In this document: positions 24,066 through 24,925 of the stretch, piece by piece
How positions within the stretch are numbered: the stretch's first letter is position 1
How the letters are laid out: every line of letters starts with the position of its first letter
NCBI RefSeq assembly: GCF_014863355.1
Contig: NZ_JACZEP010000002.1
Location: forward strand, 372,001-436,000
Direction: 5' to 3'
DNA length: 64,000 nt
Source of the DNA: Aminobacter carboxidus
GTDB taxonomy: Bacteria > Pseudomonadota > Alphaproteobacteria > Rhizobiales > Rhizobiaceae
Made by a program: the position numbers and the translations under genes
Notes under the pieces: generated by a model
What the model was told of the DNA's origin: nothing
Seen by the model: the letters and a program-made list of their open reading frames with translations, nothing else
The model's database searches: none

Positions 24066-24845
24066 GTGGTCGAACTAACACTCCCCAAGAACTCGCAGAT
24101 CAAGCAAGGCAAGACCTGGCCGAAGCCGGAAGGTGCCACCAACCTGCGCGAGTACCGGATCTACCGCTGGTCGCCGGACGATGGCGAGAACCCGAGCATC
24201 GATACCTATTTCGTCGACGTCGACGATTGCGGCCCGATGGTGCTGGACGCGCTGCTCTACATCAAGAACAAGATCGACCCGACGCTGACGCTGCGCCGCT
24301 CCTGCCGCGAAGGCATCTGCGGCTCGTGCGCGATGAACATCGACGGCTCGAACACGCTGGCCTGCACCAAGGGCTGCGACGACATTTCGGGCGCGGTGAA
24401 GATCTACCCGCTGCCGCACATGCCCGTCGTCAAGGACCTGGTGCCCGACCTCACCAACTTCTACGCCCAGCACCGTTCGATCGAGCCATGGCTGAAGACG
24501 GTGTCGCCGGAGCCGGCGAAGGAGTGGCTGCAGAGCCACGAGGATCGCCAGAAGCTCGACGGCCTCTATGAATGCATCCTGTGCGCCTGCTGCTCGACCT
24601 CGTGCCCGAGCTACTGGTGGAACGGCGACCGCTATCTCGGTCCGGCAACGCTGCTGCAGGCCTATCGCTGGCTGATCGACAGCCGCGACGAAGCCAAGGG
24701 CGAACGCCTCGACAATCTCGAAGATCCGTTCCGGCTCTATCGCTGCCACACGATCATGAACTGCGCCCAGACCTGCCCGAAGGGTCTGAACCCGGCCAAG
24801 GCGATCGCCGAGATCAAGAAGATGATGGTGGAGCGCCGGGTTTAG
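24066..24845 (+). CDS. sdhB: Succinate dehydrogenase iron-sulfur subunit
   Basis: A 259-residue subunit carrying electrons from SdhA to the quinone. The [2Fe-2S] ligands lie in [20 protein letters not shown] and the next Cys, the [4Fe-4S] and [3Fe-4S] ligands in [16 protein letters not shown] and [20 protein letters not shown] at 24066 ([11 protein letters not shown]) is preceded by GAGGAAC and matches rhizobial SdhB starts. The gene ends with KKMMVERRV; a decayed copy of this tail recurs 80 nt downstream. Confidence 0.97.
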
Positions 24846-24886
24846 CTTGGTGATCGGTTTTTGGCTGCGCTTGCGGTGTTGCGGCA

Positions 24887-24925
24887 GCCGAGATCAACAA
24901 GATGACGGTCGAGCGCCTGGTCTGA
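24887..24925 (+). repeat. Decayed second copy of the sdhB 3' end
   Basis: These 39 nt align without gaps to the last 39 nt of sdhB (24807-24845) with 32 matches, including the position of a stop codon (TAG versus TGA). In frame it reads AEINKMTVERLV-stop against [16 protein letters not shown]. No upstream coding remains, so it is a remnant of a partial duplication or recombination. Confidence 0.85.

Follow-up and report, generated by a model that had tools for sequence, protein, structure and literature searches.

A decayed copy of the sdhB gene end beside a hairpin in Aminobacter carboxidus, and its recurrence in related genomes

REP or MITE-like elements are dispersed palindromic repeats, and the hairpin reported in this work (X) resembles them in being a short non-coding hairpin but differs in that it was not found dispersed in the sequences searched. 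As in an intrinsic (Rho-independent) terminator, an inverted arm with a T-run after it directly follows the sdhB stop codon; unlike in such a terminator, the 5' arm would be located within the coding sequence, at a distance of about 33 nt in one class of copies (-39, see below) and about 85 nt in the other (-90), and a second gene tail is coupled to the unit. Quasipalindrome template switching, according to the available portions of two papers, generates inverse copies beside their source, with stems that stay complementary while they change (PMC8794818, PMC7202029); the locus described here differs from what those portions cover in that it also carries direct copies of 39 or 90 nt and in that many genera share a similar X at a single gene. 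Integrative elements duplicate their attachment sites at gene ends, the case treated in the accessible text of PMC11476347 being that of tRNA genes, and there as here the gene end is kept and a partial copy lies downstream; in contrast to that case as accessible, the present locus has no recombinase and only tens of bases between its copies. The text of that article, as far as it was available, does not mention sdhB, and titles and abstract openings in the literature, a scope outside which most subscription journals fall, yielded no description of a duplicated sdhB tail.

Here we describe a 64,000-nt stretch of Aminobacter carboxidus DNA (the window), in which the initial annotation had reported a second copy of the sdhB 3' end immediately downstream of the gene (Table 1). 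The two tails are identical at 32 of 39 positions without a gap, and each ends in an in-frame stop codon (TAG and TGA). When the 93-nt spacer was shuffled 50,000 times the best match reached 25/39, and the next-best places for the sdhB tail in the 64-kb window score 27/39 (54787, + strand) and 23/39 (- strand), the former being a weak third match to the tail at 54787-54825. Furthermore, a 26-base degenerate tail pattern, searched with at most three mismatches, matched only the two tail copies in the 6.29-Mb genome. Chance similarity, which had been named as a possible refutation, is itself refuted by the shuffles, none of which attained 32, and by recurrence of the arrangement in 20 genomes, leaving it a practically nil probability.

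Table 1. Features at the end of sdhB in the window.
Feature	Position	Strand	Description
sdhB	24066..24845	+	succinate dehydrogenase iron-sulfur subunit; GTG start; Pfam Fer2_3 and Fer4 matches, translation
Tail copy 1	24807..24845	+	final 13 sdhB codons including TAG
Possible 5' arm	24802..24812	+	CGATCGCCGAG; within sdhB, spans the start of the copied segment
Inverted 3' arm	24846..24856	+	CTTGGTGATCG; two G-U pairs with the 5' arm
T-run	24857..24862	+	GTTTTT; 3' of the arm, terminator-like
Hairpin X	24863..24886	+	G+C-rich
Tail copy 2	24887..24925	+	decayed; AEINKMTVERLV*; TGA end
DUF480 gene	24939..25577	+	3' of tail copy 2

The absence of coding sequence ahead of the second copy was likewise confirmed: the 41 bp between the tails contain none, though they are structured, comprising the arm, the T-run and the hairpin, and the DUF480 gene starts 13 nt past tail copy 2. 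When two G-U pairs are allowed, the two arms form an 11-pair helix, such that the stem and T-run typical of an intrinsic terminator are found at the end of sdhB. In the genus of the window, the arm and T-run probably end the sdh transcript ahead of DUF480. A terminator scanner returned two terminator-like sites against 0.2 in shuffles, its site using another, shorter stem, and the predicted fold of 24790-24945 is not more stable than those of shuffled sequences (z -0.76).

The arrangement extends well beyond the window. The order of sdhB tail, inverted arm, T-rich stretch, hairpin X and second tail was found in 19 genomes of the family under 11 genus labels (g1, g8, g11, g14, g17, g33, g40, g55, g78, g86 and g109) and in a twentieth genome, at a locus named Brucella pituitosa (L066). 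A tail pattern with at most two mismatches matched 355 of 394 family genomes and occurred twice or more in 21: as adjacent same-strand copies in 16, 1.46 kb apart in G216, and on different contigs in four (G067, G136, G247 and G371). Three genomes (G002, G005 and G248) were added by reading the sequence to give the 19, and the count of 20 is a lower bound where decayed copies are concerned. Two loci duplicate genome sequences (L082 is that of G343, L100 that of G248) and each pair was counted once; L187 has no second tail. Scoring the tail against its downstream sequence in the 114 sdhB loci that were left after removal of duplicates and fragments (L001, L002, L007-L012, L018-L021) gave a local score of at least 32 in 13, with the next at 31, and in shuffles of the best 60 of the 114 loci (100 per locus) no set exceeded 32. 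The footprint of a past insertion or duplication that the initial annotation saw at the end of the operon is thus a real, decayed partial duplication, but one that is not private to this genome.

Control comparisons tie the duplication to one gene and one family. Among 801 gene ends from the window and 80 named loci, at most 81 of them sdhB ends, seven scored at least 32; the top four (75, 68, 63 and 50) were all sdhB ends, and the remaining three comprised one gene each in L031 (44) and L085 (34) and, in the window itself, an ORF antisense to the repeat (36). An order-wide sample of 249 genomes included 10 family members and 239 genomes of other families. With at most three mismatches allowed, 162 of these 239 matched the tail pattern and six matched twice or more (G412, G418, G437, G476, G624 and G634), always on different contigs; no two matches shared a contig, which confines the duplication to the family of the window, within the sensitivity of the pattern. 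The arrangement is present at sdhB in 20 genomes, where tails stand in pairs or in arrays with at most four members. Within genera its occurrence is sporadic, and none of the other genes tested showed it.

The sequences between tails reveal how the copies are organized. We compared 22 inserts from the 20 genomes, not all of them independent and including only the first of the three in G009, which range in length from 38 to 134 bp. Second tails fall into two classes, starting at -39 (GCCGAG) or at -90 (ATGAAC). A template-switch product would have an inverse copy whose arm matches the start of the direct copy; in 20 of 22 inserts, the first 24 nt indeed resemble the inverse of the start of their own copy more closely than they do the inverse for the other class, the exceptions being the window (5 versus 6, counting Watson-Crick pairs only) and G190 (4 versus 8). 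A T-rich stretch and hairpin usually lie 3' of the arm, with a clear T-run lacking in G250 and L082, and nine long X share the motif GTCC.CG..CTGC. In three of eight predicted X pairs, changes on both sides preserve the pair; template switching alone can keep complementarity, so that kept pairing is no proof of selection. Folds of X with its flanks were below z -2 in just 7 of 22 inserts (mean -1.15). The relatives with better kept second tails that had been anticipated do exist, together with arrays: G009 carries three full tails, and G117 carries four in which -39 and -90 copies alternate. X itself is repeated in G025 and G086, and in the latter the hairpin unit occurs three times with different stems (L203:3015-3150). 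Readthrough from sdhB into the second tail was rejected, as insert lengths preserve no frame.

X appears to belong to the sdhB end. Three X profiles run on 212 sequences (1.56 Mb, overlapping loci included) matched sdhB ends only, the best other match having E 0.75, and a stricter X pattern applied to nine whole genomes of the genus gave matches in four, at sdhB only, this pattern being one that misses the window's own decayed X. A dispersed element is unsupported, with no X away from sdhB in the 212 sequences or in the nine genomes, the pattern used for the latter being too strict for the X of the window. The last tail of the G117 array is also followed by arm, T-run and hairpin, and in G260 (first 110 bases of L186, reverse strand) an sdhB tail has an arm and X behind it but no further tail; only 3 nt of contig precede this tail, the picture that a break in the assembly of an array would give. 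An X that stands without a further tail in these two genomes favours X being a part of the gene end that was duplicated together with the tail.

Gene ends that are kept intact with a second partial copy downstream are also what an integrative element would leave if it had integrated at the sdhB 3' end as its attachment site, supplied its own tail to make the gene whole again and later been deleted down to X. Two genomes of genus g86 are consistent with such a scar: behind sdhB, G172 reads TGA-GGACG while G232 reads tail 1-X-tail 2-TGA-GGACC, indicating that the native junction is borne by the second tail. Genes are, moreover, present between two sdhB ends in G216 and G005, so that the inserted element sought between copies by the initial annotation has some counterpart there; the 22 inserts, however, at just 38-134 bp, are too short for a recombinase gene, and neither such a gene nor an element body was found between the gene ends in these inserts, in G216 (a 229-aa ORF without Pfam match) or in G005 (a glycosyltransferase). 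The exact tail pattern has no match in IMG/VR, phage records give 62 weak tail matches of which none covers 80% (best E 0.007) and no match to the g8 module, and on plasmids the matches are to sdhB genes themselves or are partial, with coverage of the query below 80% throughout. Two different copy starts, as well as arrays, would be odd for one attachment site, and we consider a scar of this kind improbable. The preferred reading remains a duplication of the gene end with its own hairpin.

Larger insertions near sdhB merit separate description. In G005, a group-1 glycosyltransferase ORF (L015:1657-2787) opens 10 nt past sdhB, reads across the insert and terminates inside the second tail; GGCGCGCCCG is found directly ahead of its start and a second time close to its end. 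In G216 the 3' part of sdhB is found again downstream of the gene as a 331-bp, 93% copy (L211:2724-4518), about 1.1 kb away, an interval that includes the 229-aa ORF. G003 has a decayed 157-bp, 82% sdhB fragment about 1.9 kb downstream (L159:2869-3022), beside a marR-like gene and a 166-aa gene; in a tblastn comparison of ten 10-kb stretches, these genes were detected in G000 and G003 only. These insertions are different events, and an X-like insert was recognised in G005 only.

Within Aminobacter, the second tail is present in six of ten genomes (G000, G002, G004, G005, G006 and G009); G001 has an insert remnant left, and G003, G007 and G008 have no second tail. A close relative lacking the second copy, which the initial annotation had offered as a refuting case, thus exists in G003, but that genome is nested among carriers: in a five-gene tree it groups as the sister of the window genome (bootstrap 94), and the other members of the enclosing clade (support 100) carry the copy. 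Its single tail is hybrid-looking, starting like tail 1 and ending, with GTCTGAGG, like tail 2, which fits a deletion between repeats and could also be an older state; from tree and tail together, G003 likely lost its second copy. The duplication is probably older than the species in the genus of the window, and the node that separates G009 from the other members has a support of only 39, which makes its age within the genus uncertain. Tail copy 2 and its TGA-GG..ATG context resemble the sdhB/DUF480 junction of the duplication-free G003 and G008, and the added piece, relative to the empty site, may equally be tail 1 plus the 41 bp.

The proposed relation to foreign genes inside sdh did not hold. 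A GT25 gene between sdhA and sdhB is found in four of the ten genomes only (G000, G002, G003 and G004), a set that includes G003 and differs from that of the second tail, and the link was rejected on these differing distributions. In the window, the GT25-family glycosyltransferase gene lies between sdhA and sdhB (22662-24055) alongside a gene for a 150-aa protein without Pfam or NCBIfam match, the latter being present in all of the ten genomes except G009.

Divergence between tails differs by class. Counted over 21 copies, with the G002 copy left out because of an indel, differences at first, second and third codon positions number 12, 13 and 48 in the -39 class, a distribution that fits a tail 1 under constraint and a tail 2 that is free, being near the third-position share of two-thirds estimated for such a pair. 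In the -90 class they number 5, 5 and 38, or 2, 0 and 25 without L100, a pattern indicative of conversion, import or constraint. Between the two tails, 4 of 90 positions differ in G016 and 3 of 90 in G120, against 8-13 between g8 carrier species; the tails of G190 differ at 11, and hence conversion has not been uniform.

Alternatively, X and the tail copy might serve as a 3' RNA element, or the -90 copies might be translated. The -90 copies begin with ATG, and in G117, G297 and three g8 genomes their 29-aa reading frame is preserved; 25 of the 27 differences outside L100 are at third positions, and the stems of X covary; on the other hand, no clear ribosome-binding site was seen by eye, the L100 copy is decayed, -39 copies are startless, losses are common in the genus, and Rfam gave four sub-threshold hits only (E 0.17 or more). 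The copy in the window also drifts and is probably not a gene of its own. A functional element of either type is, in our estimation, very improbable.

A better case, though still an unlikely one, can be made for a single ancient duplication with X that spread between species by homologous recombination via the conserved sdhB end and was often lost. X is alike across genera, presence is sporadic within them, and in G016, G120, G190 and G297 the tails differ at third positions only, as between two working genes. Set against this are the two start classes, both of which occur in G117, and the tails of G016 and G120, which are closest to each other and would need later conversion.

We favour, with moderate confidence, the view that the repeat of the window is old and decaying and arose when a "tail plus terminator-like hairpin" underwent hairpin-associated tandem duplication or template switching, the product being later multiplied, converted or deleted. 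The duplication mechanism, terminator role and direction of change that we infer would be as follows. The basic unit would be an sdhB end with its own hairpin terminator, whose 5' arm is part of the coding sequence itself; at the arms, slippage during replication or a template switch could then duplicate tail and X from the base of the arm (-39 or -90), and recombination between copies may multiply them, keep them alike, or delete one copy together with X. The similar X in distant genera counts against purely independent slippage, which does not predict such likeness. A more speculative idea, to which we attach a low probability, is that X and its borrowed gene tail form a minimal protein-free, target-specific unit of about 80-160 bp that enters only the sdhB 3' end directly behind the stop; its arms would be copied from the target, the duplicated end would keep sdhB whole, and the unit would spread between species like a homing element.

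The tail duplication, which recurs at one housekeeping gene in many genera and at almost no other tested gene end, offers a natural experiment in how short duplications are made, copied and erased by hairpins at gene ends. At the defined site of the sdhB end, events of slippage, template switching and gene conversion become countable, and the case warns that a short repeat at a gene end is not necessarily a mobile-element scar.
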